From assembly GCF_000407165.1 (NCBI RefSeq), contig NZ_KE136479.1, positions 2,243,464-2,307,463 of the forward strand: a stretch of DNA of 64,000 bases, in the 5' to 3' direction. Positions 2,269 to 32,718 of this stretch are shown one piece after another. This DNA comes from Enterococcus haemoperoxidus ATCC BAA-382. GTDB lineage: Bacteria; Bacillota; Bacilli; Lactobacillales; Enterococcaceae. The position numbers were made by a program, and so were the translations under genes. Each line of letters starts with the position of its first letter. The stretch's first letter is position 1. The notes beneath the pieces are model-generated. The model was given only the letters and a program-made list of their open reading frames with translations, was not told the origin of the DNA and searched no databases.

Positions 2269-4461
2269 ATGATGGAAATAAAGCAAGCCAATAATGAAGT
2301 GAGTTCTACTGATTCAACCTTGAATACGATGAAAATCGTTAAAAGAGATGGACGTTTAGTTGATTTTGATGATCGAAAAATTTATGATGCTTTGATCAAA
2401 GCTGAACAAAAAATCCGAGGTTCTTTAGACCCGCTTGCTCATGAACGGATTCAAGAAATCGTAGAAAGAATTGATCAAGAAATTTCAGATCGTTTCGCTG
2501 AAGATGTAAAGATTTATGAGATTCAAAACATTGTCGAACATATTTTACTGGCAAAAAATGAATATGAACTAGCTGAAGAATATATCAACTACCGCACCCG
2601 TCGTGATTTTGAACGCAGTAAAGCGACTGACATCAATTTTACGATCAGTAAATTAATCAATAAGGATCAGTCAGTGGTAAACGAAAATGCGAATAAGGAC
2701 AGTGATGTTTTCAACACTCAACGAGACTTAACTGCTGGAATCGTAGGTAAATCGATTGGCTTAAAAATGTTACCTCCCCATGTTGCAAATGCACACCAAA
2801 AAGGTGATATCCATTATCATGACTTAGATTATCATCCATATACACCGATGACTAACTGTTGTTTGATTGATTTTAAAGGAATGCTCAACGATGGTTTTAA
2901 AATTGGTAATGCTGAAGTTGAATCCCCTAAATCGATTCAAACGGCTACAGCCCAAATTTCTCAAATTATTGCAAATGTCGCTTCTAGTCAATACGGCGGC
3001 TGTTCAGCTGACCGCGTAGATGAATTATTAGCTCCATTTGCTGAACTAAATTATCAAAAACATTTAGCTGATGCAAAAGAATGGATCGATGGATCTGAAC
3101 GTCAGAAGGAATATGCAAAAGCTAAAACTCAAAAAGATATTTACGATGCAATGCAAAGTTTAGAGTATGAAATCAATACATTATTTACATCTAACGGACA
3201 AACACCGTTTACTTCTTTAGGGTTTGGATTAGGACTAAGTTGGTTTGAAAGAGAAATTCAACGAGCAATCTTACAAATCAGAATCAATGGTTTAGGTAGT
3301 GAAAAGAGAACGGCAATTTTTCCTAAATTAATATTCACTTTGAAACGCGGGGTAAACTTAAATGAAACAGATCCAAACTACGATGTAAAACAACTAGCAT
3401 TAGAGTGTGCCACGAAACGAATGTACCCTGATGTTTTAAATTACGATAAATTAGTCGATTTGACTGGCAGCTTTAAGGTCCCAATGGGATGTCGTTCTTT
3501 TTTACAAGGATGGAAAGATGAACAAGGCAAGGAAATCAATGTCGGCCGTATGAACTTGGGTGTTGTCACCTTGAATCTTCCTAGAATCGCAATAGAAGCT
3601 CATGGAGATGTGGATAAGTTCTGGACTCTTTTAGCCGAGCGTCTTGAAACGATGAAAGATGCTTTAGTCTATCGCGTTGAACGCTGCAAAGAAGCAACAC
3701 CTGCAAATGCGCCGATTCTTTATATGTATGGTGCTTTTGGAAAACGATTATCTAAAAAAGAATCAGTCAATGAATTATTCAAAAATAAACGTGCTACTGT
3801 TTCACTCGGCTATATTGGGTTGTACGAAGTCGCTTCTGCTTTTTACGGTGGAGAATGGGAAACGAATCCTGAGGCAAAAGACTTTACCATTGCGATTTTA
3901 AAAGATTTAAAAGCTCATGCAGATAAATGGGGCGATACTTATGGTTATCACTTTAGCGTTTATTCTACACCAAGTGAGAGTTTAACTGATCGTTTCTGTC
4001 GTTTAGATACTGAAAAGTTTGGCGTGGTAGAGAATATCACCGATAAAGATTATTACACAAATAGTTTCCATTATGATGTTCGTAAAAATCCAACACCTTT
4101 TGAAAAATTAGATTTTGAGAAAGATTATCCACAATATTGTTCTGGCGGTTTTATCCACTATTGTGAATACCCAGTCCTACAACAAAATCCCAAAGCGTTA
4201 GAATCTGTTTGGGACTATGCTTATGATCGTGTTGGCTATCTCGGAACAAATACACCGATTGATCATTGCTATGAGTGTAACTTTGAAGGAGATTTCAATC
4301 CAACAGAACGCGGTTTTGAATGTCCACAGTGTGGCAACCACGATCCAAAATCATGTGATGTTGTCAAACGTACCTGTGGATATCTAGGCAATCCACAAGC
4401 TAGACCAATGGTTCACGGAAGGCACAAAGAAATATCTTCCCGTGTGAAACATATGAAATAA
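2269..4461 (+). CDS. nrdD: Anaerobic (class III) ribonucleoside-triphosphate reductase
   Basis: 730 residues. It reduces ribonucleotides to deoxyribonucleotides under anoxia using a glycyl radical. An ATP-cone allosteric domain (KIVKRDGRLVDFD onwards) occupies roughly residues 22-115. The catalytic barrel follows. The C-terminal zinc site is CYEC...CPQC, and the radical glycine is in RTCGYLG near residue 704. The start ATG is 10-15 bases after GAGGAG; a second ATG follows immediately and could also be used. The partner activase nrdG lies 694 bp downstream, beyond a tandem repeat array that begins on the last base of this stop codon. NrdR boxes upstream indicate nucleotide-responsive repression. 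Confidence 0.97.
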   Translation: MMEIKQANNEVSSTDSTLNTMKIVKRDGRLVDFDDRKIYDALIKAEQKIRGSLDPLAHERIQEIVERIDQEISDRFAEDVKIYEIQNIVEHILLAKNEYELAEEYINYRTRRDFERSKATDINFTISKLINKDQSVVNENANKDSDVFNTQRDLTAGIVGKSIGLKMLPPHVANAHQKGDIHYHDLDYHPYTPMTNCCLIDFKGMLNDGFKIGNAEVESPKSIQTATAQISQIIANVASSQYGGCSADRVDELLAPFAELNYQKHLADAKEWIDGSERQKEYAKAKTQKDIYDAMQSLEYEINTLFTSNGQTPFTSLGFGLGLSWFEREIQRAILQIRINGLGSEKRTAIFPKLIFTLKRGVNLNETDPNYDVKQLALECATKRMYPDVLNYDKLVDLTGSFKVPMGCRSFLQGWKDEQGKEINVGRMNLGVVTLNLPRIAIEAHGDVDKFWTLLAERLETMKDALVYRVERCKEATPANAPILYMYGAFGKRLSKKESVNELFKNKRATVSLGYIGLYEVASAFYGGEWETNPEAKDFTIAILKDLKAHADKWGDTYGYHFSVYSTPSESLTDRFCRLDTEKFGVVENITDKDYYTNSFHYDVRKNPTPFEKLDFEKDYPQYCSGGFIHYCEYPVLQQNPKALESVWDYAYDRVGYLGTNTPIDHCYECNFEGDFNPTERGFECPQCGNHDPKSCDVVKRTCGYLGNPQARPMVHGRHKEISSRVKHMK

Positions 4462-5070
4462 AAAGCGGATTGAACCGTTTAGATCTTGAACAAATTAGGA
4501 AAATGATGTAAAGATGCTTTTTATCTTTACAAGCGTTTTATCTATTTGTTGAAGGATCTGGTTCATGTAGCTAGATTCAATAAAAAGCGGGTTGAACCGT
4601 TTAGATCTTGAACAAATTAGGAAAATGATGTAAAGATGCTTTTTATCTTTACAAGCATTTTATCTATTTGTTGAAAGATCTGGTTCATGTAGCTAGATTC
4701 AATAAAAAGCGGATTGAACCGTTTAGATCTTGAACAAATTAGGAAAATGATGTAAAGATGCTTTTTATCTTTACAAGCATTTTATCTATTTGTTGAAAGA
4801 TCTGGTTCATGTAGCTAGATTCAATAAAAAGCGGATTGAACCGTTTAGATCTTGAACAAATTAGGAAAATGATGTAAAGATGCTTTTTATCTTTACAAGC
4901 ATTTTATCTATTTGTTGAAAGATCTGGTTCATGTAGCTAGATTCAATAAAAAGCGGATTGAACCGGTTAGATCTTGAACAAATTAGGAAAATGATGTAAA
5001 GATGCTTTTTATCTTTACAAGCATTTTATCTATTTGTTGAAAGATCTGGTTCATGTAGCTAGATTCGATA
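4461..5070 (+). repeat. Five tandem 122-bp fold-back repeats between nrdD and nrdG
   Basis: AAAAGCGG/AAAAGCGGG unit starts lie at 4461, 4583, 4705, 4827 and 4949, with constant 122-bp spacing, and a degenerate sixth start at 5071. The units are nearly identical; differences are single bases, mostly in the first and last copies. Each unit is a long imperfect palindrome around a central GCTTTTT loop: TGTAAAGAT pairs with ATCTTTACA, GAACAAAT with ATTTGTT, AGATCTT with AAGATCT, and TGAACC with GGTTCA. Each unit ends GTAGCTAGATTCAAT. The array fills the nrdD-nrdG gap and starts on the nrdD stop codon. It is not coding. See the similar arrays at 29382 and 32235. Confidence 0.95.
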
Positions 5071-5094
5071 AAAAGTGGAATATGTTAATTCCAA

Positions 5095-5134
5095 AAAAAC
5101 GGTATCCCCTGCAATTTTAGCAAGCATCGTTTTT
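5095..5134 (+). terminator. Weak hairpin with T-rich tail just before nrdG
   Basis: AAAAACG at 5095-5101 can pair with CGTTTTT at 5128-5134 around a 26-base interior that includes TGC/GCA. It could attenuate readthrough from nrdD into nrdG, but the stem is short and the call is tentative. Confidence 0.3.
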
Positions 5135-5155
5135 ATTTGAAAGGATGACTAAAAA

Positions 5156-5758
5156 ATGAGAAATCCTAAACCGCAAGAATGGTTGGCTAAAGAACTTAGT
5201 CAAAACTATATTGCAGATTATAAATCATTTAACTTTGTGGATGGCGAAGGCGTGCGCAATAGTCTATATGTTAGTGGATGCCTTTTTGCTTGTGAAGGTT
5301 GTTTTAACCAAGCTGTGCAAAGTTTTCGCTATGGTAAACCGTTCACAAAAGAATTAGAAGATAAAATCATCGAAGATTTGTCTCACGATTATGTACAAGG
5401 GCTTACCTTATTGGGTGGAGAACCTTTTTTAAATACAGCTGTTTGCTTGACTGTTGTCGATCGAATACACAAAGAATTTGGATTAAATAAAGATATCTGG
5501 TCTTGGTCAGGATATACTTTTGAAGAACTGTTACTAGAATCTGAAGATAAACTTGAACTATTAAACAAAATTGATATCTTAGTAGATGGTCGTTTTGAAT
5601 TAGCTAAGAAGAACTTAAACCTTCAATTCAGAGGCAGTAGTAACCAACGAATCATTGATGTCAAAAAATCATTAGCTACTGGAAAAGCTGTCATTTGGGA
5701 TAAATGCCATGATGCTGAACAAACCTATGAACAAATAAAAAAAGGGAACTTAATTTAA
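5156..5758 (+). CDS. nrdG: Anaerobic ribonucleotide reductase activating protein
   Basis: 200 residues. This radical-SAM enzyme makes the glycyl radical on NrdD by reductive cleavage of S-adenosylmethionine. The cluster motif is C42-x3-C46-x2-C49 (CLFACEGC), and LLGGEPF further on is the usual SAM-contact GGE motif. AAAGGATG lies about 8 bases before the ATG. It is the second gene of the nrdDG unit, but the intergenic repeats put it almost 700 bp from nrdD, so its expression relative to nrdD may depend on readthrough or on a local promoter. Confidence 0.96.
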   Translation: MRNPKPQEWLAKELSQNYIADYKSFNFVDGEGVRNSLYVSGCLFACEGCFNQAVQSFRYGKPFTKELEDKIIEDLSHDYVQGLTLLGGEPFLNTAVCLTVVDRIHKEFGLNKDIWSWSGYTFEELLLESEDKLELLNKIDILVDGRFELAKKNLNLQFRGSSNQRIIDVKKSLATGKAVIWDKCHDAEQTYEQIKKGNLI

Positions 5759-5778
5759 TCGATCACATCAATTCTTAC

Positions 5779-5822
5779 CACTGCAGCTGTAGAATAATTT
5801 CTCATGGCTGTAGTGTTTTTTA
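5779..5822 (+). terminator. Rho-independent terminator after nrdG
   Basis: CACTGCAGCT (5779-5788) pairs, with two G-U pairs, with GGCTGTAGTG (5806-5815), followed by a T run. Confidence 0.75.
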
Positions 5823-5938
5823 GTTAAATCCACTACCTTATCGAATTATTGGCTCATCTTTTATATGTATATTACAATAAAAAAATAGAATAATTCGTTC
5901 TTGAATACACTCAAACAAAAAATAAGGAGGAAACTATT

Positions 5939-6727
5939 ATGACAAAAAATCAGTCATCATCTGTAAAAAAAGCGATCATCACGGGGGCTGCTTCGGGAAT
6001 TGGTTATGCTACAGCCAAATTATTTATCGAAAAAGGATTTATCGTAGGTTTAATTGACGCTGACAAAAAACGGTTAGAAACCATTTCTAAAGATTTTAAG
6101 CAAAGCGGTCATGAATGCTACTACAGAAGTGTGGATGTAACCGATGAAGTTAGCTTAAAAAAAGCAATTGACGAATTAACTGATAGTCTAGAAGGCTTGG
6201 ATATCTTTTTCAGTAATGCAGGAATAAATGGAACTTGGGCTCCCATCGAAACCTTAACAATTGATGAATGGGATCGTACAATAAACACTAATTTGCGTAG
6301 TACTTTTTTATGCATAAAATTTGCGATTCCCCATATGAAAGAGAACGGTGGCTCAATTATTATCACAAGTTCTATCAACGGGACTAGAATTTTTAATAAT
6401 TTTGGTGCATCAGCGTACAGTGCTTCAAAAGCTGGGCAAGTTGCCTTTACAAAGATGGCTGCCCTAGAACTTGCGCGTTATAACATTCGGGTCAATGCCA
6501 TCTGTCCTGGTGCTATCGACACAGCCATCAATGAAAAAACAACCTATTCAGATGAATTAAAAGAAGTTGAAATCAAAGTGGAATTTCCTGAAGGCAATCG
6601 TCCTTTAAAAAATAAAACTGGAACTAGTAAACAAGTTGCGCAATCTGTTTTATTTTTGGCAACTGATGCATCGGCTAATATTTCTGGAACTGAGCTTTAC
6701 GTAGATGGAGCAGAATCTTTACTTTAA
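5939..6727 (+). CDS. Short-chain dehydrogenase/reductase (SDR) family protein
   Basis: 262 residues, classical SDR length. The dinucleotide-binding motif TGAASGIG is at 15-22, SNAG at 92-95, Asn118, Ser144/145, and the YSASK catalytic motif has Tyr160 and Lys164. It is a cytosolic NAD(P)(H)-dependent oxidoreductase; the substrate cannot be deduced. GVGIGG-type sugar or sterol specificity markers are not obvious. The start follows a strong AAGGAGGAA site. It stands alone, convergent with the photolyase. Confidence 0.9.
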   Translation: MTKNQSSSVKKAIITGAASGIGYATAKLFIEKGFIVGLIDADKKRLETISKDFKQSGHECYYRSVDVTDEVSLKKAIDELTDSLEGLDIFFSNAGINGTWAPIETLTIDEWDRTINTNLRSTFLCIKFAIPHMKENGGSIIITSSINGTRIFNNFGASAYSASKAGQVAFTKMAALELARYNIRVNAICPGAIDTAINEKTTYSDELKEVEIKVEFPEGNRPLKNKTGTSKQVAQSVLFLATDASANISGTELYVDGAESLL

Positions 6728-6734
6728 TATGGAA

Positions 6735-6790
6735 AAAAGTGTTTAGCTCCCGGAAATAAGGTGAAATTTATTTCTAGGAGCTACTTTTTC
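6735..6790. terminator. Bidirectional terminator between the SDR gene and phr
   Basis: TAGCTCC (6744-6750) pairs with GGAGCTA (6777-6783), and GAAATAA (6753-6759) with TTATTTC (6768-6774), flanked by GAAAAAA and TTTTTC. It ends both convergent genes. Its AAAAAGTG start and palindromic layout recall the longer fold-back repeats elsewhere in the window, but it is much shorter. Confidence 0.8.
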
Positions 6791-6847
6791 TCGCTGTTTA
6801 ATCGAATTTAGTGCGCGCAACAAAACTAACTGACTTTTTCTTTCATC

Positions 6848-8266
6848 CTAAGATGAAGCTGTCTTGAAAAATGCAAGAATCTCTGAACGAATTTTGCTAT
6901 GATCAACGATTGGATCAGGGTAATCTTCACCCATAGAAACATTTATGGCATTTTGGAGTTCCGCTGGCATCTTACTTGGCTCATGAATATATTTATTTGG
7001 CACATCTTTTAATTCTGGAATAAACTGACGGATAAACTCTCCATGAGGATCGAATTTTTCACTTTGTGTTGTGGGATTGAATATTCGAAAGTAAGGAACT
7101 GCATCTGTTCCTGTAGACGCTGCCCATTGCCAACCACCAATATTACTTGCAGCATCATAATCGATTAATTTTTGCTGGAAATATTCTTCTCCCATCCGCC
7201 AATCAATCATTAAATCTTTCGTCAGGAATGATGCCACGATCATTCGCAAACGGTTATGCATCCACCCCGTTTGATTGAGCTGTCTCATTCCAGCATCAAC
7301 GATTGGAAAACCTGTCTTTCCTTCTTTCCATCGCTCAAACGATTCTCGATTATAACTCCATTGCAGTTGTCGATATTTCTCTTTGATCTCTTGTGTTTTT
7401 TGTTTAGGATTTTCAAAATAAATCATATTATAAAAATCACGCCAGCATAGTTCTGAGATAAATGTTTGACGACCATCCGAATCTGGTTCAGCATTTAGAG
7501 CATACCAAACTTTGCGAATGGATAATTCCCCTGTTCTTAAAAACCTTGATAGTTTACTTGTTTGATTTGAAAAAGGATAGTCTCTCCCTTTTTGATAATT
7601 ATGTAAGTGACTTTTTATAAATTCTTTCAGATAAGCCTCAGCTGCAACTTCTCCACATTCATAATCAAAGGGTAATTCTATTTTTTCAACAATCTGGTTA
7701 AAGTGTTTTTTTCCCTCATCAAATAATGGGTGCTTCAGCTTTTTAAATGACCGATCATTCTTCGTTGTTCGTTGATACATTCGTTTAGGCATTGTTAGCC
7801 ATTTTCTGAAATAAGGTGTAAAAACTTTGTAGCTTTCACCTGTTGGCTTTTTAATTTCTTCAACACCATGGATATGACTATCTTGAAATGAACACACTTG
7901 AATCTGGTTCTTTTCAAAAAAAGTAGTCATTATCTGATCCCGTTCTCTGCCGAAACCACGTTCATCTTTATTGAAATATACTGTATTCCAATCTTGAAAA
8001 GCATTCTTTAATTCTGCAAATTTTTCTTCCACATTCCCGTATAAAAAATGGAGCTCTATATTATTTGTTTTAGCATGTTCATAAAATGTTGATAACGTGT
8101 AGAAAAAAGCATCATGATTGTAACTATCTTCTAAAAATTGCAACGGATTCAATTGAAAAAGACAAATTAGTTCCTCTGTATCATGACTATCTTCTAGCAT
8201 CTTATTAAATGCTGTATTATCATCTAAACGAAGGTCTTTACGAAACCACATAATTGTTTTGCTCAT
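6848..8266 (-). CDS. phrB: Deoxyribodipyrimidine photo-lyase
   Basis: 472 residues from the ATG at 8266. The frame stays open 31 codons further upstream, but MSKTIMWFRKDLRLDDNTAF is the classical photolyase N-terminus and AAAGGAA lies 8 bases before this ATG. The N-terminal alpha/beta antenna-binding domain is followed by the FAD-binding domain with WCRDFYNM-like and WMHNRLRM motifs and the IGGWQWAASTGTDA motif of CPD photolyases. It repairs UV pyrimidine dimers with blue light. It is the last gene of the leftward HD hydrolase-dinB-phr run, which has a LexA-type box at its head. Confidence 0.94.
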   Translation of the reverse strand: MSKTIMWFRKDLRLDDNTAFNKMLEDSHDTEELICLFQLNPLQFLEDSYNHDAFFYTLSTFYEHAKTNNIELHFLYGNVEEKFAELKNAFQDWNTVYFNKDERGFGRERDQIMTTFFEKNQIQVCSFQDSHIHGVEEIKKPTGESYKVFTPYFRKWLTMPKRMYQRTTKNDRSFKKLKHPLFDEGKKHFNQIVEKIELPFDYECGEVAAEAYLKEFIKSHLHNYQKGRDYPFSNQTSKLSRFLRTGELSIRKVWYALNAEPDSDGRQTFISELCWRDFYNMIYFENPKQKTQEIKEKYRQLQWSYNRESFERWKEGKTGFPIVDAGMRQLNQTGWMHNRLRMIVASFLTKDLMIDWRMGEEYFQQKLIDYDAASNIGGWQWAASTGTDAVPYFRIFNPTTQSEKFDPHGEFIRQFIPELKDVPNKYIHEPSKMPAELQNAINVSMGEDYPDPIVDHSKIRSEILAFFKTASS

Positions 8267-8374
8267 TGAATTTTTCCTTTCGTGTTTCTGAATAAATCGT
8301 AACATAGATATTGATTTATCACGAAAATTTAAAGCTGTTTGATTTAAAAATATCAGCATAAATTAGTCTTTAAG

Positions 8375-9511
8375 CTATTCGTCCTCTTCAGTCTGTATCT
8401 TTTCCCATAAAGGCAATACCATGTTTTCATAAGCCATCGGATCAAGATTAGTCAACGTTATCCCTAGTAACCGAATCCCTTGTTCGAGACCAAGTATTTC
8501 CTCCCAAATCAAGTTAGCTTGATAATATAATTCTTCTTTTTTTGAAATATATTCTGGCAGAGTCCGACGTTTCGTCACTGTTGTATAATCAGCATAACGA
8601 ACTTTTAAAACGACTGTTTTTCCATGTTTTTGGACCCGCTCTAACGACTCTTCTACTCGTTGTGCTAGTTGTCTTAATTGAGCAGTTACTTGTGCTTCAG
8701 TCGTTAACGGTGTTCCATATGTATGCTCCTTGCCCACAGATTTACGGTCTCTTGTTATGTTTACCGGTGAATCATGGATTCCACGAACTTTCCGATAAAG
8801 AGAATACCCCATTTTACCAAAATTACGGATCAATTCCATCTCATCTTGTTTATAAAGATCTTCCCCAGTATAAATACCTAAATCATGCATTTTAGGAACT
8901 GTTTTTTTTCCTACTCCGTGAAATGCTTCAATCGGTAAAGCTTTTAAAAAAGTTTCTGCATCATCTGGCATCACAACCGTTAGACCTTTAGGTTTTTGAA
9001 AATCAGACGCTAATTTTGCTAAAAACTTGTTGTAGCTGACACCTGCTGAACAAGTTAAATGCAATTCGTTCCAGATATCATACTGAATCAATTTAGCAAT
9101 CTTTATTGCTGATTTACTATCGATTTTATTTGTTGTGACATCTAAATACGCCTCGTCTATTGAAACGGGTTCGATAATATCTGTATAGCGATGAAAAATC
9201 TCTCGAATTTGCTTAGAAATTTCAGAATATTTTTCATAATTTCCTGGTTTAAAAATAGCATCTGGACATAATTCATACGCTTTTTGAGCGCTCATTGCAG
9301 AATGGATTCCGAATTTACGCGCTTCATAATTTGCAGTAGTCACAACACCTTTACCACCTGTATCACTTGGATGGCGTGCGATCACTAATGGGTGTCCGAC
9401 TAATTCTGGATGGTCACGTTCTTCTACAGAAGCAAAAAAAGCATCCATGTCGATATGAATAATCTTACGAGAAGTATCCTTCTTTAAAGGAAAACGTAAT
9501 TCACTTATCAT
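8375..9511 (-). CDS. dinB: DNA polymerase IV (Y-family translesion polymerase)
   Basis: 378 residues. Catalytic acidic residues are in IHIDMDAFFASVE near the N-terminus and in SIDEAYLD; the helix-hairpin-helix and little-finger domains follow. It copies past DNA lesions in an error-prone manner. AAAGGAGG lies before the ATG. It is 43 bp after the HD-domain gene and 108 bp before the photolyase start, so the three probably share the promoter at 10570-10598, where a LexA-type box suggests damage induction. Confidence 0.95.
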   Translation of the reverse strand: MISELRFPLKKDTSRKIIHIDMDAFFASVEERDHPELVGHPLVIARHPSDTGGKGVVTTANYEARKFGIHSAMSAQKAYELCPDAIFKPGNYEKYSEISKQIREIFHRYTDIIEPVSIDEAYLDVTTNKIDSKSAIKIAKLIQYDIWNELHLTCSAGVSYNKFLAKLASDFQKPKGLTVVMPDDAETFLKALPIEAFHGVGKKTVPKMHDLGIYTGEDLYKQDEMELIRNFGKMGYSLYRKVRGIHDSPVNITRDRKSVGKEHTYGTPLTTEAQVTAQLRQLAQRVEESLERVQKHGKTVVLKVRYADYTTVTKRRTLPEYISKKEELYYQANLIWEEILGLEQGIRLLGITLTNLDPMAYENMVLPLWEKIQTEEDE

Positions 9512-9554
9512 ACTCGCCAGCCTCCTTTCAACTAGGTCGGTGTACTTTTATTCC

Positions 9555-10532
9555 TTAATCAAATTTAATAAAAATTCCCTTTTTACTCTCATTAAGCATT
9601 TTATCAATCTTTACCTGAGCCGTTTTTGAAACCTTTGATACTGGAACAATCTTATCAGGCAATCTTACCAAGGGATCGACAAACCTTATTTTCTTTTGCT
9701 GCTGGATATCGTAATCATCCTCACTGGAACAAACCCGATATTCCGGTGGATGATCCATATTGCCCAATAATTGCAGGATTTCAGTTGAACCTGTTGATTT
9801 TAACTTCTTGAGAAAAGCTGAATCTGTCATCATCAAATCATCTAAGATAATTTCTTCATTTGCTAGTCCAAGCTGGATTGCCTTTGACATCCACTCATAG
9901 CTGCAACTGTTTTGAGGATCATAAAAAAAGTCGATTACTACTTTTCGATACTGCTCTATAAACCAATCAGCCCAATAAACTGACTCTAAAACAATTTGCT
10001 TCTTAATGATTTTGATTGAATTCAAAAAATACTGAATTTCTTGTAATGGAACGGAAAAATAGCGATAAACTTCACGTAAGGTATAATCAATCCGATCAAA
10101 ACATAGTAACGGTGCTTTTTGTTCCAATAATCCCCATTGTTCGTCATCAAATAAAATCTGCCGATAATCAAATCCATATTGGTTTAATAAGGCAGGAATT
10201 GCAGAATCTTCAATCAATTGTGCTTTGATTTGCTCATGATAATCGTCTGTTTTATTAGATAAAACCAAATCGATCACATGTGAAAATGCGGTATGAGACA
10301 CATCATGTAGCAGCCCTGCAATTTGTTCTTCTATTGTTCCACCAAATCTTTTGATTAACAACATAACACCAATAGAATGCTCATATCTGGTTTCATTCCA
10401 AGTTGGATTAATCAAAAATGCTGGTCCTGCCATATGAACATCTTTTAAACGTTGAATCTCTTCTGATAAAATCAATCTTGCTAGAACTTCTTCAACTTCA
10501 TATGAACCATATAGAACATCCTCAACAATCAT
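9555..10532 (-). CDS. HD-domain phosphohydrolase
   Basis: 325 residues. The HD metal site is visible: His in RYEHSIGVM, then HD in GLLHDVSHTAFSH. It resembles the YwfO/YdhJ group of dGTPase-like hydrolases, which act on nucleotides. The start follows AAAGGAG. It is the first gene of the leftward HD-dinB-phr run and lies directly behind a promoter carrying a LexA-type box. A nucleotide-cleaning role during DNA damage would fit this context, but that is inference. Confidence 0.85.
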   Translation of the reverse strand: MIVEDVLYGSYEVEEVLARLILSEEIQRLKDVHMAGPAFLINPTWNETRYEHSIGVMLLIKRFGGTIEEQIAGLLHDVSHTAFSHVIDLVLSNKTDDYHEQIKAQLIEDSAIPALLNQYGFDYRQILFDDEQWGLLEQKAPLLCFDRIDYTLREVYRYFSVPLQEIQYFLNSIKIIKKQIVLESVYWADWFIEQYRKVVIDFFYDPQNSCSYEWMSKAIQLGLANEEIILDDLMMTDSAFLKKLKSTGSTEILQLLGNMDHPPEYRVCSSEDDYDIQQQKKIRFVDPLVRLPDKIVPVSKVSKTAQVKIDKMLNESKKGIFIKFD

Positions 10533-10569
10533 TTTTTTCTCCTTTAAAAATCAGCTATATTTTATACAC

Positions 10570-10598
10570 ATTATATACGAACGTTTGTTCATTTACAA
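10570..10598 (-). promoter_or_regulatory. LexA-controlled promoter of the HD-dinB-phr run
   Basis: On the minus strand, TTGTAA (10593-10598) and TATAAT (10570-10575) are 17 bp apart. The spacer contains TGAACAAACGTTCG (10578-10591), which matches the Gram-positive SOS box CGAACRNRYGTTCG at all but the first base. A repressor bound there would block RNA polymerase directly. Confidence 0.8.
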
Positions 10599-10618
10599 CT
10601 TATTTTATTTGAATAAAA

Positions 10619-10650
10619 AAAGGAATAGTGCCCTTTCAGCTCTACTCCTT
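10619..10650 (-). terminator. Terminator after the PII gene
   Basis: AAGGAATAG and CTACTCCTT form a stem with one mismatch; the minus strand then runs into seven T. It closes the amt-PII pair. Confidence 0.65.
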
Positions 10651-10663
10651 AAGTAAAAATAAT

Positions 10664-11005
10664 TTATATTGCTTGTGCGCCACGTTCACCCGTTCTAATC
10701 CGAATCGCTTCTTCTACATTGTAAACGAAGATTTTACCGTCTCCTACTTCTCCAGTCTGGCAAATAGCCAAAATCAAAGAAATAATCTCTTCCACTTCCT
10801 CGTCTAAAACAACAAAACTGACTTTCACTTTAGGCAACAGTGTTGTAATGATTTCTTGACCACGAACAAATTCTTTTAACCCTTTTTGGTTTCCAAATCC
10901 TAAAACTTGGCTTACGGTCATTCCTAGTGCTTCAAAACTATCAGCCATTTTAACTTTCAGCTCTTCTAGTTTTTCCTGCTGGATGATTGCTTCTACTTTT
11001 TTCAT
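10664..11005 (-). CDS. glnK: PII-family nitrogen regulatory protein (GlnK-like)
   Basis: 113 residues, the usual PII length. PII trimers bind ATP/ADP and 2-oxoglutarate and plug the ammonium channel AmtB. The C-terminal signature VGDGKIFVYNVEEAIRIRTGERG is present. The T-loop reads KEFVRGQEIITTLLP, so neither loop tyrosine of the enterobacterial proteins remains: the Tyr46 position is Val and the Tyr51 uridylylation position is Ile. Control by uridylylation is therefore unlikely. The gene starts 11 bp after amt, and the pairing with amt supports GlnK function. Confidence 0.92.
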   Translation of the reverse strand: MKKVEAIIQQEKLEELKVKMADSFEALGMTVSQVLGFGNQKGLKEFVRGQEIITTLLPKVKVSFVVLDEEVEEIISLILAICQTGEVGDGKIFVYNVEEAIRIRTGERGAQAI

Positions 11006-23979: not shown

Positions 23980-24098
23980 AATTCTCTCCTTTAAATATAA
24001 TAATACTTTTTTAGTATAACATTACTATTTATTAAATGACAATCATTATTTTAATTTCAAAAAAATAATTAAATTGGAGAATTAATTCAAATAACAGA

Positions 24099-25592
24099 TC
24101 AAACATTTAAATAAGCAATATCTTTAGGCAAAACTAATCGTCTTTTATCGATATATTTTCGTAGGTCCGTAATATTTTTAAATGACGGGATGTCTTCTAC
24201 AATCATGTTGACCTCTTCTGCTACCGTTTCAATTGCATAATTTGACACATACAAATCATAATTTTGACCAGATCCGACCACTAGCTGATCATAAAAATGA
24301 CTCTCTTGGACAAAAAGATTAACCTTGTTTCGAAAGTTTTCTTTCAGAACAGAACTCAGTAACTGAGCATGCTCCTTCCCCAAATCGCTCAAAACCAAAA
24401 CAGATAATTGATGCCTCATTTCATCTGTAAGTTTGCTAAGGTCTTGCCAACGGATTGCCATTTCATGAAGAATACTATCTAAATACATACTTTTCCATGG
24501 GAATTTCATTTTATCTTCCAACACACCTAATGCTTTTTTGACAACCTCTGTAAAAACAATAAAGTTCTGTTTGATTGCTCGGCTAGAATATAAGTAACGA
24601 TCATAGACCATAAATTTTTTATAGGGAAACATCTTGTGTTTTGCATAGATGTACTCGATCAAACGAACAATACTTACTCTACTTTGTTCTGAAATAGAGA
24701 TAGAAAGTGCTTCTTTAATTGTCGTTACCAAATTTTCCGCTTGATGAATAACATTTAACTTCTCCTGTTCATTATCCCAACCAAAATCCCACCAAAAAAT
24801 AGAATAACAAAAATCTTCATACCAATTATCAGGAAGAACGACATTTAATGGTGCTGCAATCTCTTCTACATCAGCTTGATACTTCTTCACATCAATCGTC
24901 GTTTTTACAAAGCTATTGATTGGATCTTTTCTATTTTGAATCAAAAATCCTTGTCTTTCTCTAATAATAGTAACAGCAATTGAATACGCTAAATGGACGA
25001 TTTGACTATCATTCAATTCTAGTTCGAATTTTTTATTGATCTTATTCGACAACCTAAAGACCTTCTCTCGATCTAGATGAAAGGGCCATTCTCGAATTCC
25101 ATATACCTCAATAAAATAGCAAGTAAAAAAATAGCGAATCTGTCGTTCGTCTTTACCATGAACAAAATAAGGTGAACGACTCATTTGAATATTGCGATCT
25201 TTTAACGCTGAACTAATTATATTGGACAAACGATATAAACTAGAATTGCTTAAAAATAAATTTTTCTCCCAGAATGATGCAGGCTGCATGGGATCAAAAA
25301 AAATTGACTCTAATAAGGAAAAAGCATTTGACTCTTGCATAATTTCAATATAAATTTCATGAATTGAACGATGTGGCGAAGTGATCAAACGAATACCATG
25401 TTTTCTTGACGTTTCTATCGTCAGATAATCTGACCAGCGATCTTCTATGTACTGACAATCCAACATGATCGTTTTTTTTGAGCAATTGATACTTTCAGCT
25501 AAATAATCCGAGGTGACCCAGCTTTTTGGTCCATTTAACAAGTTCAACAACAAGACTCTTCGATGCATAGATGGTGATAATAATCTTTCCAT
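24099..25592 (-). CDS. Mga-type helix-turn-helix transcriptional regulator
   Basis: 497 residues from the ATG at 25592, chosen for GAGGAGA 5 bases upstream. An N-terminal winged-helix region (WVTSDYLAESINCSKKTIMLDCQYIEDRW) is followed by a long PRD/Mga-like helical body and a C-terminal EIIB-like segment near LSVLVLSDLGKEHAQLLSSVLKENF. This is the layout of the Mga/AtxA virulence regulators, which respond to sugar-PTS phosphorylation. It is divergent from the secreted Ig/sortase-like gene at 25833, its most likely target. Confidence 0.85.
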   Translation of the reverse strand: MERLLSPSMHRRVLLLNLLNGPKSWVTSDYLAESINCSKKTIMLDCQYIEDRWSDYLTIETSRKHGIRLITSPHRSIHEIYIEIMQESNAFSLLESIFFDPMQPASFWEKNLFLSNSSLYRLSNIISSALKDRNIQMSRSPYFVHGKDERQIRYFFTCYFIEVYGIREWPFHLDREKVFRLSNKINKKFELELNDSQIVHLAYSIAVTIIRERQGFLIQNRKDPINSFVKTTIDVKKYQADVEEIAAPLNVVLPDNWYEDFCYSIFWWDFGWDNEQEKLNVIHQAENLVTTIKEALSISISEQSRVSIVRLIEYIYAKHKMFPYKKFMVYDRYLYSSRAIKQNFIVFTEVVKKALGVLEDKMKFPWKSMYLDSILHEMAIRWQDLSKLTDEMRHQLSVLVLSDLGKEHAQLLSSVLKENFRNKVNLFVQESHFYDQLVVGSGQNYDLYVSNYAIETVAEEVNMIVEDIPSFKNITDLRKYIDKRRLVLPKDIAYLNV

Positions 25593-25709
25593 TTTGTCTC
25601 CTCTTTTCACCTTTTTTTATTTTTCTTCAAATTTTTCCAGTAGTTAAGATTTTTTTGAAGAAATCCCTATCTAACAATAATTATAGCATCTTCCTACCCT
25701 TTTTTGAAC

Positions 25710-25737
25710 TAAACCAAAGCGCAACTCAATTGGTTTA
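25710..25737. promoter_or_regulatory. Inverted repeat between the Mga regulator and the Ig/sortase-like gene
   Basis: TAAACCAA (25710-25717) and TTGGTTTA (25730-25737) are perfect 8-bp arms, 12 bp apart, in the 240-bp divergent intergenic region. They could be a regulator binding site. No T run follows, so a terminator is unlikely. Confidence 0.45.
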
Positions 25738-25832
25738 TTTAAAAGTGGGTCTTATTATAAAAATATAAAAGCGCGGATTTAAAATTTATCGATAAATGGA
25801 AAATCTCACCACAATTTTTGGAGGGGTTCTAC

Positions 25833-26858
25833 ATGAAAAAAAACACAATTAAACACACCATTCTCATTGGCTTCATCAGCATTTTAGGCATTACTTTATT
25901 TATTGGCGGCTATATTTTCACTGACGCATCCAATAGAGCAAACAACAATAATAGTGCAACAAAAAAAGCGAACGTTACTTTAGTTAAAAACGTGCCAACA
26001 GACAAAGAATTAGTTAAACTAGCAACTCCTGTAAAGCAAAAACAAGCGAAAGAAAAAATTGTTGCCGTGAATGCCACTAAAGATACTGTTGCACCAACGA
26101 TAAATGTACCTGAAGAAACTGTTGAACAAAATGCTCAAGTTAATATCTATGAAGAAGTCACTGCTACTGACAATAAAGATGGAGATGTCACAGAAAAAGT
26201 AACCGCAAATCAAACGCTAGATACCTCCGTTGTAGGTACACAAACTATACATTTTACAGCTACTGATACTAGCGGAAATACTGGTGCTGCAGATAGAACA
26301 TTCCACATTGTTCCAAAGAGTGAACCAACAACTACGCCAATCGTGGAACAAACGCCTGTAGAAGAAGCTCCTACGCCTATTGAAACAGCTACAGATCAAG
26401 CTGCACCTATCAGTGCACCCGCCGCTCCAGCAGAGCCTTCATATAGCGCAATGACGCTTACTCTAAACGGTCAAACGATTCCTTATCAAAATGGCGGACA
26501 AGGGAGTGGCCAAAGTGTAATTGATTCAAATCCTGGGGGTGTTGCCTCAACATGGGGCGGTGCAGCTGTTCAATCTGGCGATGATGGACAAAACACACAT
26601 TTTATCGGCCACAATCCAGGTGTATTCTCTACTGTTTTCTCACTAGGAGCAGGCAGTCAAATTGTTGTAACCGACGCAAATGGTGCACCTACAACTTACA
26701 CAGTTCGTACATTGTTACAATTAGATGACTATGGAACTGAAGTAGGAACAGGAACCAACTATTGGGATCTTACAGTAGGCACCGGTGGAGGAGAACGTAT
26801 CACCTTACAAAGTTGTGTTAATGATGATATCAACTTATTTGTGATTGCTTATAAATAG
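25833..26858 (+). CDS. Secreted Ig-like protein with a C-terminal sortase-like domain
   Basis: 341 residues from the ATG at 25833, 6 bases after GGAGGGG. An N-terminal signal/anchor helix (HTILIGFISILGITLFIGGYIF) is followed by a lysine-rich linker. Next is one DUF5011-type Ig-like domain, about 85-155 (TVAPTINVPEE ... FTATDTSGNTGAADRTFHI). A Pro/Thr/Glu/Ala-rich linker, about 158-200, leads to a C-terminal domain with FIGHNPG (His260) and ITLQSC (Cys328). These resemble the sortase TLxGH and TLxTC motifs, but no arginine follows the cysteine, so transpeptidase activity is doubtful. Confidence 0.7.
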   Translation: MKKNTIKHTILIGFISILGITLFIGGYIFTDASNRANNNNSATKKANVTLVKNVPTDKELVKLATPVKQKQAKEKIVAVNATKDTVAPTINVPEETVEQNAQVNIYEEVTATDNKDGDVTEKVTANQTLDTSVVGTQTIHFTATDTSGNTGAADRTFHIVPKSEPTTTPIVEQTPVEEAPTPIETATDQAAPISAPAAPAEPSYSAMTLTLNGQTIPYQNGGQGSGQSVIDSNPGGVASTWGGAAVQSGDDGQNTHFIGHNPGVFSTVFSLGAGSQIVVTDANGAPTTYTVRTLLQLDDYGTEVGTGTNYWDLTVGTGGGERITLQSCVNDDINLFVIAYK

Positions 26859-26862
26859 TTTA

Positions 26863-27886
<1,024 letters not shown>

Positions 27887-29368
27887 TTATAAACTGTCAA
27901 TAAATCGTTTAAAGGCTGCTTGTCCTTCTGGTGTTCGCTTATAAACCCCAGCATCAGCTAAAACTTGAGCAAAAATTTGTCCTACTTCCTTTTGAATAAG
28001 TTCTTTTGCATTTTTTTTATTAAAAGAATAGATTTCTTTCATCTGATCTGCCCATTTTTTATGGTAATCTGCAATCTGATTTTCTTTTTCTAAAACATAT
28101 TTTTCTACTTCTTCCAATTCACTACCTAGTCGTGGGGGCAATACTGCTAAGCCCATCACTTCGATCAAACCAATATTTTCCTTTTTAATATGCTGAACTG
28201 CTTTATGAGGATGAAAAATTCCGTCTGGGTATTCTGTAGAGACATTGTTATCACGTAAAACTAAATCCAGTTCAAATAACTGTCCTTTGCGACGAGCAAT
28301 CGGCGTAATAGTATGATGAGGAGTTCCATCTTCTGAAAAAGCTCGAATTGATACGTCTTCATCAGAATAATTACGCCACTTTTCTAGAATCAACGATGCC
28401 GCTTCAACGAGGTCTTCTGAATTTGGGCTTTGCAAACGAATCACAGACATTGGCCACTTGACAATTCCTGCATTCATTAGAGGAAAATCGCTCAACTCAA
28501 AATATTGTTCGATTTCTGCTTTCTCCATTGGGAAAACATGTCGTCCAGCTTGATAATGATCATGGGTTAAAATCGAACCACCTACAATTGGTAGATCCGC
28601 ATTAGAACCAACAAAATAGTGAGGTAATACTTCAACAATTCTAATCAAGCGACGAAATGTTTCTTTTGAAATAACCATTGGACAATGTTCTTCAGACAAA
28701 ATAATCGAGTGTTCATTGTAGTAAGCATATGGTGAATACTGAAAGCCCCAGCTCTCTCCATCTAAGTTCATCCGAATAATTCGGTGATTGGTCCTAGCTG
28801 GATAATTAGTACGTCCTTTGTAGCCTTCGTTTTCCATGCACAAGACACATTTAGGATAATCCACCTGTGCTGCTTGACGTTCAGCAGCAATTTGTTTAGG
28901 ATCTTTTTCGGGTCTTGATAAATTGATCGTAATCTCAAGCTGGCCATATTCTGTTTCTGCTGGGAAAACAATATTTTTAGCAATTGCTCGAGTTTTGATG
29001 TAATCATTTTCTTGACTTAATTTAAAGAAATAATCAGTCGCATCAGCTGGATCTTTTTCATAATGTTGCGCAAAAAGAGCGTTCACCACTGAAGGTGGAG
29101 GTGTGAGAAAATCCATCAACTGTGCTTCAAAAATCTCTAAATCCATTGCTTCTTCTTTAACCGTACCATTTGCTACTGCTTGAGCCACTAATTCATCCAA
29201 CAATTCTAAGGATGTCTTTTTTACGACTGTTGGAGAAATGGACTCTAATGATTCTTCACCGATCATTGCAAGTACACGATTTTGTAAATAAAGACGATCC
29301 AACTCCATCCAACCACCAGCTTGAATCGCTAAGGTTACAAAATCAGTAATAGTTTGACTAATAGACAC
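27887..29368 (-). CDS. galT: UDP-glucose-hexose-1-phosphate uridylyltransferase
   Basis: 493 residues, the long Firmicute GalT family (class II). It swaps UMP between UDP-glucose and galactose-1-phosphate in the Leloir pathway. Recognisable stretches are CVLCMENEGYKGRTNYPARTNHRI and the active-site region LTHDHYQAGRHVFPME. The start codon is GTG at 29368, after AGGAGGAAATGTT; the ATG inside that stretch is out of frame. A fold-back repeat begins next to this ribosome binding site. Confidence 0.95.
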   Translation of the reverse strand: MSISQTITDFVTLAIQAGGWMELDRLYLQNRVLAMIGEESLESISPTVVKKTSLELLDELVAQAVANGTVKEEAMDLEIFEAQLMDFLTPPPSVVNALFAQHYEKDPADATDYFFKLSQENDYIKTRAIAKNIVFPAETEYGQLEITINLSRPEKDPKQIAAERQAAQVDYPKCVLCMENEGYKGRTNYPARTNHRIIRMNLDGESWGFQYSPYAYYNEHSIILSEEHCPMVISKETFRRLIRIVEVLPHYFVGSNADLPIVGGSILTHDHYQAGRHVFPMEKAEIEQYFELSDFPLMNAGIVKWPMSVIRLQSPNSEDLVEAASLILEKWRNYSDEDVSIRAFSEDGTPHHTITPIARRKGQLFELDLVLRDNNVSTEYPDGIFHPHKAVQHIKKENIGLIEVMGLAVLPPRLGSELEEVEKYVLEKENQIADYHKKWADQMKEIYSFNKKNAKELIQKEVGQIFAQVLADAGVYKRTPEGQAAFKRFIDSL

Positions 29369-29381
29369 AACATTTCCTCCT

Positions 29382-29553
29382 AGTTTAAAAGCTGAACAGG
29401 CTCATTCGGAGCTAGCCTGCGAAGCTAGATAAGTTTAAAAGCTGAAAAAGCTCATTCAGCCTTGACAGGAAAAAGATAAAAAATAACTGAGACTCTCTTT
29501 GGCTCATTTATTTTTTATCTTTTCCCCAAAAGGCTAGCTCTTGAAGCTAGATA
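29382..29553 (+). repeat. Fold-back repeat pair in the galE-galT gap
   Basis: A short unit (29382-29431, 50 bp) is followed by a full unit (29432-29553, 122 bp). Both begin AGTTTAAAAGCTGAA and end GAAGCTAGATA. In the full unit AAAAGC (29437) to the end of AGCTAGAT (29552) is exactly 116 bp, the same as in the arrays at 4461 and 32235. The arms pair: AAAAGATAAAAAATAA with TTATTTTTTATCTTTT, and CTGAG with CTCA. The central loop differs (ACTCTCTTTGG). The short unit looks like a full unit with its middle deleted. Confidence 0.85.
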
Positions 29554-29606
29554 ATGCGTGGTAACAACGTTCCGCTTTGCTTCACCTTATACTATAACAA
29601 AATTAC

Positions 29607-30593
29607 TTATTCATATCCTTTTGGATGACTGACATGCCAATCCCAAGCCGTTTTGATAATCTGTTTGATATCTGTGACTTGAGGCTGCCAACCCAAAATT
29701 GTTTTGGCTTTTTCACTTGAGGCTACCAGTTTACTTGGATCGCCTAAACGACGAGGTAATACTTTGGCCGGAATTTCTTTTCCAGTCACTTCTCTAGCTG
29801 CTTCAAGCATTTCTTTAACCGAATAGCCAGTATTACTGCCTAGATTGAAAATATTGCTTTCGTTGCCTTTTTGTAAATACTCCAACGCCGCAATATGAGC
29901 CGCAATCAAGTCTTCAATATAAACATAGTCACGAATACAAGTGCCATCTGGTGTATCATAATCATCACCATAAATTCCTAAATACGCTCTTTGTCCTAAA
30001 GCTGTTTGCAAAATGATGGGGATCAAATGAGTTTCTGGATCATGATCTTCACCAATAGAGGCATCTGATTTAGCCCCAGCAACATTGAAATAACGTAATG
30101 CAACATAACGCATACCATAAGCTTCGTCACACCATTTCATCATTTTTTCCATCATTAATTTGCTTTCGCCATACGGATTTTCTGGATTTGTGGGCATCGT
30201 TTCTACGATTGGCATCTCTTTAGGCTCTCCGTAGGTAGCAGCCGTTGAAGAGAAGACAATATGTTTAACGCCGAACTCCTCCATTACTTCCAATAGGATT
30301 TGGGTTCCGTAGACATTGTTATTGAAATACATCAATGGTTTTTCTACCGATTCACCAACTAGTGAACTTGCAGAAAAATGAATCACACCATCGATCTTTT
30401 CATTTTTGAACACATCCTGCATAAACACTTTATCTCGAATATCACCTTGATAAAATTGAGCTTTTTTATGAATTGATTGTTTATGACCCGTCTGAAGATT
30501 ATCAACAACAATTACCTCATACCCTTTATTGACTAATTGATCTACTGCATGAGATCCGATGTAGCCAGCTCCACCTAAAACTAAAATAGACAT
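29607..30593 (-). CDS. galE: UDP-glucose 4-epimerase
   Basis: 328 residues. An extended SDR: NAD-binding GGAGYIGSH at the N-terminus, FSSTAATYG with the catalytic serine, the YGESK motif (Tyr and Lys), and DYVYIEDLI. It interconverts UDP-galactose and UDP-glucose. It lies between galK and galT, with a 238-bp gap to galT that holds the fold-back repeats. Confidence 0.97.
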
Positions 30594-30657
30594 GTTACTG
30601 CCTCCTTATCTGAATGTATTAGAAATTAAAATCTATTTTTTTAACGTATTCTTTATT

Positions 30658-31818
30658 CTACAGCTTTCTTGCTCCATCATCAACATTTGCAATATAAAAA
30701 TCTGCCGGATAGCCAATTTTTTCTTGATAGGTTTGTCCTACTTGTTTAATAAAATAATCCATCTCTGTTTCTTTGACTAAAGCAATTGCACAACCGCCAA
30801 ATCCGGCGCCTGTCATTCGGGCCCCTAAGACACCTGGGAATTTCTGTGCTTCCTCTACTAATGTATCCAGTTCAATTCCAGTTACTTCATAATCATCTTT
30901 TAAAGAGGCATGTGAATCATTCAACAATTGACCAAAACTTGATAAATCATTTTCTGCAAGGAATTTTTTTGCTTTAATTGTTCGCTGATTTTCAGTGACA
31001 GCGTGTTTTGCTCGTTTAATCAAACATTCATCTGCAATGACTTCTTTATTTTGCTCAAATCGTTCTACTGTTAATTCTCCCAAAGATTCAACCGGTAAAA
31101 CACTTTGTAAACGGCTCAAAGCCAATTCACATTCTGCTCGACGTTCGTTATATTTTGAATCCGCTAGTTCTCTACGTTTGTTTGTATTCATGATTGCAAT
31201 CGCATACTCGCCAAATTCTGCTGGTACCAATTCGAAATCGAGTGTATTTGTATCTAATAAAATTGCATGATCTCGCTTCCCCATACCGATCGCAAACTGA
31301 TCCATGATCCCTGAATTTACCCCAATAAATTGATTTTCTACACGCTTACCAGTGACCACCAAGTCTAGCATTTTAACGTTTAAAGCAAATTGATTATTTA
31401 AAATAACTCCAATTAATAATTCGATTGAAGCTGAGGAAGAAAGTCCTGCTCCATTTGGGATCGTGCCATAAAAAAGAATGTCCAACCCTTGATTGATTGC
31501 ATAGCCCTGTTCGATCAGGTAATGGATCATACCTTTAGGATAATTCGCCCACGCATCTTCTTTTTTATATGCTAAATCATTTAAAGAAAGTTCAATAATT
31601 CCTAATTCTGAAAAATTTTCTGAATAAAGACGAAACGTTTGATCTTCACGTTTTCTAGCTACCCCGTACGTTCCAATCGTAATGGCTGCTGGAAAAACAT
31701 GACCACCATTATAATCAGTGTGTTCTCCAATCAAATTGATTCTTCCAGGAGCAAAATAGATTTCTTTTGACTCTGTTCCAAATACGGAATGAAATCGTTC
31801 TTTCAATTCGTTTTCCAC
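30658..31818 (-). CDS. galK: Galactokinase
   Basis: 386 residues from a GTG start at 31818, preceded by AGAGGTGATAAAC; an ATG seven codons earlier lies upstream of that binding site and is rejected. GHMP kinase motifs are present: galactose-binding GRINLIGEHTDYNGG, ATP loop PNGAGLSSSASIE, and GARMTGAGFGGCAIAL. It phosphorylates galactose at C1. First gene of the galKETR operon. Confidence 0.96.
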   Translation of the reverse strand: MENELKERFHSVFGTESKEIYFAPGRINLIGEHTDYNGGHVFPAAITIGTYGVARKREDQTFRLYSENFSELGIIELSLNDLAYKKEDAWANYPKGMIHYLIEQGYAINQGLDILFYGTIPNGAGLSSSASIELLIGVILNNQFALNVKMLDLVVTGKRVENQFIGVNSGIMDQFAIGMGKRDHAILLDTNTLDFELVPAEFGEYAIAIMNTNKRRELADSKYNERRAECELALSRLQSVLPVESLGELTVERFEQNKEVIADECLIKRAKHAVTENQRTIKAKKFLAENDLSSFGQLLNDSHASLKDDYEVTGIELDTLVEEAQKFPGVLGARMTGAGFGGCAIALVKETEMDYFIKQVGQTYQEKIGYPADFYIANVDDGARKL

Positions 31819-31839
31819 GTTTATCACCTCTTGCTTCAT

Positions 31840-31902
31840 TTTAGTAAATTAATTATAAAACATTTACTAAAAATTTACAACTTTTTTTGTAAAACGATTA
31901 CA
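31840..31902 (-). promoter_or_regulatory. galKETR promoter with operator-like repeats
   Basis: On the minus strand, TTGTAA (31875-31880) and TATAAT (31852-31857) are 17 bp apart. TTTAGTAAA and TTTACTAAA elements at 31840-31848 and 31863-31871 flank the -10 as an inverted pair. Just upstream, TGTAATCGTTTTACA (31888-31902) is a near-palindrome with a central CG, the form of a LacI-family operator or an off-consensus cre. From here to 32062 there is no other feature. Confidence 0.65.
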
Positions 31903-32062
31903 TTCCTTTATAACCTTTCCTGATAATATCTTAGAAAAAAGGAAAATTCTACTTTTCTGACATAACTAATTGAACTTGCTATACTTTTACTACAATCTAT
32001 TGGATTTTTTTCTTACTTTAGTACATAATGGAAGTGTCTAAATAACTGAGAGGAGAATGTAT

Positions 32063-32230
32063 ATGAAAAAATTTATTTCAGGAATGCTTGTGGGAACAGC
32101 CGTAACTTGCGCTGCTGTTGTCGGATTTGCAGCTACTATCAAAAAAACTGTTCTTGATCCAATCGAAGAAAAAGAAGATATGATTGAGGAAAACCGTAAA
32201 AAAGCAATGCGTAAACGTATTTCTCGATAA
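32063..32230 (+). CDS. DUF3042 family small membrane protein
   Basis: 55 residues after GAGGAGAATGTAT. The sequence MKKFISGMLVGTAVTCAAVVGF gives one N-terminal membrane helix. It is followed by a charged tail with DPIEEKEDMIEENRKKAMRKRIS, which fits the Lactobacillales-specific DUF3042 family of unknown function. It is too short for many gene finders. A 122-bp repeat array begins 4 bp after its stop codon. Confidence 0.85.
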   Translation: MKKFISGMLVGTAVTCAAVVGFAATIKKTVLDPIEEKEDMIEENRKKAMRKRISR

Positions 32231-32234
32231 TACG

Positions 32235-32718
32235 AAAAGTGGAACAAACCCGCTTAACTCTAACAGAAAAATAGGAAATCCTGTTTGTGATGCTTTTTAT
32301 CACGATCAGGATTTATCTTTTTTCCGAAGAGTTGGTTTGTATAGCTAGATCATACGAAAAGCGCAACAATCCCGCTTAACTCTGACAGAAAAATAGGAAA
32401 TCCTGTTTGTGATGCTTTTTATCACGATCAGGATTTATCTTTTTTCCGAAGAGTTGGTTTGTGTAGCTAGATCATACGAAAAGCGGAACAAACCCGCTTA
32501 ACTCTGACAGAAAAATAGGAAATCCTGTTTGTGATGCTTTTTATCACGATCAGGATTTATCTTTTTTCCGAAGAGTTGGTTTGTATAGCTAGATCATGAA
32601 AAGCGCAACAAACCCGCTTAACTCTGACAGAAAAATAGGAAATCCTGTTTGTGATGCTTTTTATCACGATCAGGATTTATCTTTTTTCCGAAGAGTTGGT
32701 TTGTGTAGCTAGATCATG
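32235..32718 (+). repeat. Four tandem 120-122-bp fold-back repeats
   Basis: Unit starts (AAAAGYGS) lie at 32235, 32357, 32479 and 32599, with a degenerate fifth at 32719, giving periods of 122, 122, 120 and 120. Each unit folds on a central GATGCTTTTTATC: GTGAT with ATCAC, AAATCCTG with CAGGATTT, AACTCT with AGAGTT, and ACAAACC with GGTTTGT. AGCTAGAT ends the core at 116 bp in the first unit. The ends and loop match the nrdDG array while the arms differ. Units 1 and 3 and units 2 and 4 share small variants. Confidence 0.93.

Follow-up and report, generated by a model that had tools for sequence, protein, structure and literature searches.

Why should a short fold-back element keep its length and its ends while the sequence of its arms changes from one gene junction to the next? 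The question is raised by three loci in a stretch of 64,000 nucleotides (nt) from the genome of Enterococcus haemoperoxidus ATCC BAA-382 (contig NZ_KE136479.1, positions 2,243,464 to 2,307,463), referred to here as the window. An initial annotation of this stretch described three units, at 4461-4576, 29437-29552 and 32235-32350, each exactly 116 bp long, and a covariance model yields identical coordinates for all three. The self-pairing arms TGAACC/GGTTCA and ACAAACC/GGTTTGT were both recovered in window units, as was the loop GATGCTTTTTATC in the first and third arrays. The fixed core of 116 bp holds for these three units and fails as a rule, 116 being the mode only. The reported observation is thus confirmed and its extent is larger than was first described: the window carries ten full 116-nt units, distributed as five, one and four per locus, as well as two bare left ends and a mini-copy of 44 nt. 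Units at the first and third loci, five and four respectively, repeat in tandem with a period of 120-122, and adjacent array units are 92-99% alike. The units are probably copies of an old, non-coding repeat, non-autonomous and recognised in its folded DNA form.

Their dispersal was examined at three levels. In the host genome (3.58 Mb, two contigs), an end-to-end pattern gave 57 matches, about five of which look like chance occurrences in coding DNA, compared with 3 for the reversed control, and the units are therefore not chance. A covariance model built from 62 units gave 134 matches at E<=0.01 among 150 candidates scored. The 116 stronger matches fall at 78 sites, of which 55 hold one unit, 13 two, 6 three, 3 four and 1 five. 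Most matches in this genome measure 105-118 nt, a few falling between 55 and 152 nt, and kin outside this genome reach 180 nt. Within the genus, where up to 150 candidates per genome were scored, all 22 genomes, this one included, contain model matches, with 4 to at least 150 copies each. Among 299 sampled Bacilli genomes, for which up to 12 candidates per genome were scored under strict filters, 51 genomes from 26 of the 118 genera carry matches, the best E-value being no lower than 1e-6 to 1e-4 in 10 of the 51. An exact junction pattern also occurs in 103 stretches of named genomes, many of which lie in unrelated phyla and look like chance; those recognised by the model are from named Enterococcus species, Pilibacter, Sporosarcina, Pseudalkalibacillus, Defluviitaleaceae and other Bacillota. 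The set referred to below as outside the genus comprises 102 model matches at loci from Bacillota, and includes a few loci from Pilibacter, Defluviitaleaceae and the same family. No blastn match was found in plasmids, with two units as queries, or in phages, with one, and none of the 12 pattern matches in viral contigs coincided with a model match.

The consensus fold begins at the 5' end with AAAAGC and has a 3-bp foot helix formed with GCT, a 3x3 internal loop and a stem of 6-7 bp. There follow a bulge of 4-5 nt around GTT, on the 5' side only, and a 6-bp stem; further inwards, an internal loop with GACAG opposite CCGA leads to the inner stems and a GCTTTTTGC-like loop, and AGCTAGAT closes the unit. 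The bulge and internal-loop motifs are common to units inside and outside the genus. Covariation was judged against shuffled and slid-partner controls. The 62 aligned units were drawn from 78 non-redundant ones, 16 having been removed by hand for size and diversity, and 90.7% of their cells were paired, as against 66.8% after shuffling and 32-45% with slid partners; 27 of 30 pairs had changed on both sides. Since all 78 units had passed a folding filter, the count was repeated on a filter-free set of 24 units from the host genome, picked by their ends, their length of 116 and their mutual difference only. Here 93.3% of cells were paired, compared with 82.9% in the shuffled and 35-51% in the slid controls, and 27 of 40 pairs had changed on both sides, a number above all of 500 shuffles. 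The initial annotation would have been refuted by an absence of further copies or of covariation in the arms; many unlinked copies were found, by pattern and by model, and the covariation is strong.

It had proposed either selection on the folded form or a copying mechanism that rewrites both arms. Covariation and dispersal agree with that proposal, which may be narrowed to a fold that appears to matter as DNA and not as RNA. The premise is that folded RNA would tolerate G-U pairs and not A-C, whereas a DNA palindrome should show both more evenly. The M-box riboswitches of the genus served as an RNA control and, in 28 sequences, yielded 199 G-T and 1 A-C. By the same procedure, 75 G-T and 26 A-C were counted in units of the host genome (n=32) and 57 and 31 in units from elsewhere (n=46), neither set showing the profile of a structured RNA. 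On the reverse strands the corresponding figures were 49/28 and 20/33, and model-based alignments gave 96/60 for Enterococcus (90 units) and 76/25 outside the genus (94 units). A tRNA control for G-U counting was dropped, as only 10 genes were found. Judged against the RNA control, the balance of the two mispairs suggests that pairing is maintained chiefly at the level of DNA, the forward strand being modestly preferred.

That preference, together with the strong arm covariation and a location where transcripts may run, against ribosome-binding sites or after stop codons, is what speaks for a structured RNA, whether a 5' leader, an element of the 3' untranslated region or a small RNA, maintained for its folded transcript. 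In 63 of the 78 units it is the forward strand that folds better; this first strand count relied on minimum-energy folds, which overstate the forward-strand excess, and the early signal was weakened by the fairer pair counts and the M-box control. We regard such an RNA as unlikely, given 26 and 31 A-C mispairs in the units where the control has one, and given that the strand which folds better is, at most sites of the host genome, antisense with respect to the gene at the left end. No Rfam family was matched at E<=1 in the four loci searched, and within the window no unit reached an Rfam gathering score.

Covariation could also arise without selection on the fold if intrastrand template switching, or repair of the hairpin, rewrote the arms. 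Palindromes are prone to template-switch copying, the paired changes show few G-T intermediates, and at one orthologous site (site 4) the inner arms differ where the flanks are alike. Perfecting a palindrome in this way would, however, erase the one-sided bulge and the internal loops which units share inside and outside the genus. Arm copying in its pure form fails on this point, and we consider it improbable as the explanation of the family.

Further evidence comes from placement, read from automatic open reading frame (ORF) calls for 61 or 62 of the 78 host sites. The gene at the AAAAGC end is directed opposite to the unit at 58 of 61 sites. A CCTCC-like anti-Shine-Dalgarno core lies at most 16 nt to the left of the first unit at 48 of 61 sites (control windows, 17 of 366); at 36 of these 48 the unit starts 5-6 nt past the core. 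An opposing gene with a Shine-Dalgarno-like signal has its start codon 10-26 nt away at 50 of 62 sites and for 23 of 42 first units in other Enterococcus genomes, where the core itself was detected at 25 of 44 first units and in 11 of 220 controls. A second class of sites follows a stop codon on the same strand within 12 nt. This class is small in the host genome (7 of 62, against 16 of 620 random positions), somewhat larger in other Enterococcus genomes (8 of 42, against 20 of 420) and prominent outside the genus (20 of 46 first units, against 20 of 460). In both classes it is the left end that faces the coding region. A replication-strand bias, with 61 of 78 sites against the fork, was considered and set aside; sites lying with the fork are again mostly opposite to the neighbouring gene (11 of 12 with context), and we read the fork bias as a by-product of gene orientation.

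Comparisons between relatives show turnover at fixed points. At the stop codon of nrdD, model matches occur in 13 of 22 genomes, one at only 30 bits; by eye, a short remnant is visible in one further genome and nothing in the other 8. Units at this site could be sorted by eye into three or more arm types, mixed in some arrays and differing between species. A comparison of ten Shine-Dalgarno sites with their orthologues (27 loci, three relatives) revealed filled, empty and decayed states at the same point, and the Shine-Dalgarno-like core was present in the empty sites that were read, so that the core was not brought by the unit. One relative (locus L298, position 1690) has a bare AAAAGCTAGAT, which looks like the result of a clean loss of the hairpin between its terminal AGC repeats. 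More sequence is common to the two flanks of a first unit than to permuted flank pairs (p 0.004 and 0.01), in a test whose 33 rows were chosen by sequence pattern alone and probably include a few chance matches in coding DNA; a target-site duplication is possible.

These comparisons bear on the simplest alternative, that the units are inert palindromic remnants, spread long ago and placed as they are through purifying selection only. The existence of decayed copies would fit, as would the finding that unlinked copies are at most 94% identical. Nevertheless, the distance to the start codon remains 15-22 nt at 24 of the 30 host sites that have over 100 nt of open space on their far side; the close spacing to the Shine-Dalgarno signal is therefore not accounted for by the intergenic room available, and related species hold different units at the same site. 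Inert remnants are accordingly given little credence.

For the favoured reading, a folded-DNA repeat, a mechanism may be outlined. A putative enzyme encoded elsewhere would move the units as hairpins, perhaps single-stranded, and insert them with the left end towards a gene, at the edge of a Shine-Dalgarno sequence or a stop codon. Reinsertion would sometimes occur at the same point beside an older copy, leaving a spacer of 4-7 nt; arrays may also enlarge by tandem duplication, and the arms could drift provided that both sides change together. The most specific form of this scheme, which we put forward tentatively and think doubtful as a whole, has attC-like folded-DNA units, widespread in Bacilli, being recognised by shape via conserved extrahelical bases and inserted repeatedly, with constant orientation, at coding-region edges by a novel enzyme, which would generate same-orientation arrays in gene junctions.

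Several results weigh against the folded-DNA repeat as such. Outside the genus the anti-Shine-Dalgarno core is not enriched (4 of 47, control 10 of 235), so that no single address serves all of the superfamily, and units may owe their placement to selection acting once they had been inserted. On the forward strand, G-T exceeds A-C by 1.6 to 3 fold, which leaves room for a one-strand role, even as RNA. Confidence in a folded-DNA repeat is slightly reduced because placement differs inside and outside the genus and because the strand preference remains. Among 1403 pairs of unlinked copies (55 of the 116 units) the best reaches 94% identity and the median is 70%; without near-identical copies, movement must be old, slow or arm-changing. 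Exact flank repeats of 5-6 nt are found in only 4 of the 33 first units. Polar growth of arrays, suggested by the decayed left ends on the far side, was not supported by unit scores, the left unit scoring higher in 14 of 26 arrays in a tally of model-detected units that includes weaker matches. No mover emerged from the searches: one strict stem pattern detected no cargo-bearing copy in 2.37 Mb of DNA (overlaps included), and no neighbouring gene is common to four or more loci, except for an ABC-transporter cluster at 10 of 88. Finally, none of the 29 loci examined for Y1 transposases carries a unit within 1.5 kb on either side.

The last result bears directly on REP-like elements mobilised by a RAYT, a single-copy Y1 transposase, as the source of the family. 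The foot of the unit is GTAG-like, and several unit-bearing genomes hold one or two diverged Y1 genes. The Pfam family PF01797 (IS200/RAYT) occurs in 163 of 299 Bacilli genomes; by a hand count, however, Y1 is present in 33 of 51 genomes with units and in 130 of 248 without. The host genome's sole match is fragmentary and interrupted by two in-frame TGA codons (G000:C1:754208-754429, locus L309). With no units beside the Y1 loci examined and a broken copy at home, this mover was dropped, and a RAYT origin now appears highly improbable.

Returning to the window, all units lie on the plus strand. The first array begins inside the stop codon of nrdD, the gene for anaerobic ribonucleotide reductase (2269-4461, plus strand; Pfam PF13597, 3.1e-191), and comprises units at 4461-4576 (82.6 bits), 4583-4698 (81.2), 4705-4820 (85.7), 4827-4942 (85.7) and 4949-5064 (84.4). 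After a 6-nt spacer there is a bare left end, AAAAGTG, at 5071-5077 (plus strand), which we read as a decayed last copy; a partial left end also terminates arrays in several other species. Downstream, at 5156-5758 on the plus strand, lies a gene for a 4Fe-4S/radical SAM protein (PF13353, 1.3e-54), presumably NrdG-like from its context. The single full unit of the second locus (29437-29552, 99.6 bits) stands between an epimerase gene (29607-30593, minus strand) and a galT-like gene of the galactose-1-phosphate uridylyltransferase family (27887-29368, minus strand; PF01087, 4.5e-40, and PF02744, 2.2e-29). Beside it, the 44-bp mini-copy at 29387-29430 (37.2 bits, plus strand) consists of the outer stems and both ends only, and adjoins the Shine-Dalgarno sequence of the opposing galT-like gene. 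The third array starts four bases past the stop codon of a 55-amino-acid ORF (32063-32230), which falls below the limit of the gene-orientation survey. Its units are at 32235-32350 (108.7 bits), 32357-32472 (111.3), 32479-32594 (115.3) and 32599-32714 (115.1), followed after a 4-nt spacer by a bare left end, AAAAGCG, at 32719-32725 (plus strand), again read as a decayed last copy. The nrdD and 55-amino-acid ORF loci, two of the three in the window, thus belong to the stop-codon class.

Other repeats accompany the units. A second module (GGTAACAACGTTCCGCTTCGC... CACTGTGTTTCAAAGC) directly adjoins several of them, at 29553-29592 in the window and in the flanks of loci L288, L294, L297 and L300, and a third hairpin module (CTTCAATCCTTAGAGCTTTAGCTCTTAGGAATTG...) is nested in the 3' arm of some intact or decayed units, giving longer forms (loci L293, L299, L279 and L157). 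At 36806-36901 (plus strand) there is a weakly related second hairpin which scores 27.7 bits over model positions 10-106 and lacks the conserved ends; elsewhere in the genome there are eight partial matches like it (model positions 10/11-105/106). The window also includes an M-box magnesium riboswitch (RF00380) at 50449-50617 on the minus strand (141 bits), one of six matches in the genome, and three tandem 300-nt repeats at 54432-55331, the second and third 67-69% like the first, within a long minus-strand ORF (53831-56329) that probably encodes a repeat-domain protein.

If the folded-DNA reading is correct, small DNA hairpins of one widespread superfamily occupy gene junctions in enterococci as well as in other Bacilli, and do so at an unusual position, the margin of the ribosome-binding site. 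Hundreds of natural variants could then show which features of folded DNA an enzyme reads, and the loci would provide a system for testing the effect of a hairpin next to a ribosome-binding site on its neighbours, for example nrdD and its downstream partner or the epimerase and galT-like pair. The count of G-T against A-C pairs offers a simple aid for separating DNA-level from RNA-level covariation.

How does the family compare with known systems? In the literature searched, which covered few subscription journals, there was no description of it, although its end sequence and a related Bacillales repeat were among the subjects searched; nor were its wide reach in Bacilli, its DNA-type covariation or its Shine-Dalgarno and stop-codon address found there. 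The integron attC site, which acts as a folded single strand, also combines variable arms with conserved feet and extrahelical bases and also forms same-orientation arrays, but no cassette genes lie between neighbouring units here, neither attC boxes nor an integrase having been sought. Miniature inverted-repeat transposable elements (MITEs), among which RUP, NEMIS, ERIC and Bcr1 are named in PMC3733652, are likewise short, non-coding and gene-adjacent, with presence or absence varying between relatives. The present units share these properties and are multi-copy; they differ in that their arms diverge with compensation, and they lack terminal inverted repeats, AAAAGC and AGCTAGAT being inverted repeats over 3 bp (AGC/GCT) only. 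The same source describes REPs as palindromes of 20-40 bp, and RAYT genes as flanked by GTAG repeats or terminal inverted repeats (PMC3733652). The likeness to the units lies in high-copy extragenic palindromes near genes with an unpaired GTAG tag at one foot, and the difference in a length of about 116 nt, in same-orientation arrays and in the absence of units beside the 29 Y1 loci. As to other enterococcal repeats, E. faecalis D32 is named as rich in A/T triplex motifs in a work on triplex repeats (PMC4666352).

The nearest relative may be the EFAR element of E. faecalis. The family described here is a palindromic, modular and intergenic enterococcal element without coding capacity, and resembles EFAR in these respects. 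As described by Venditti et al. in 2007, EFAR is said to range from 42 to 650 bp, to measure typically 170 bp, to be L-shaped with two hairpins and to be inserted at small stem-loops. That size range resembles the one from the 44-bp mini-copy to the array of about 600 bp in the window. The typical two-hairpin form of 170 bp, by contrast, differs from the modal unit here, a single 116-nt hairpin flush with Shine-Dalgarno sequences or stop codons, longer forms with a nested second module being present. EFAR is classed among the MITEs of enterococci in PMC3733652. None of the 22 genus genomes contains an exact match to an E. faecalis ddl primer. Since size range, host genus and modularity fit, we lean towards EFAR being the E. 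faecalis branch of this hairpin family. It would then perhaps form part, together with the units of the window, of a widespread superfamily of MITE- or REP-like non-autonomous elements of folded DNA.

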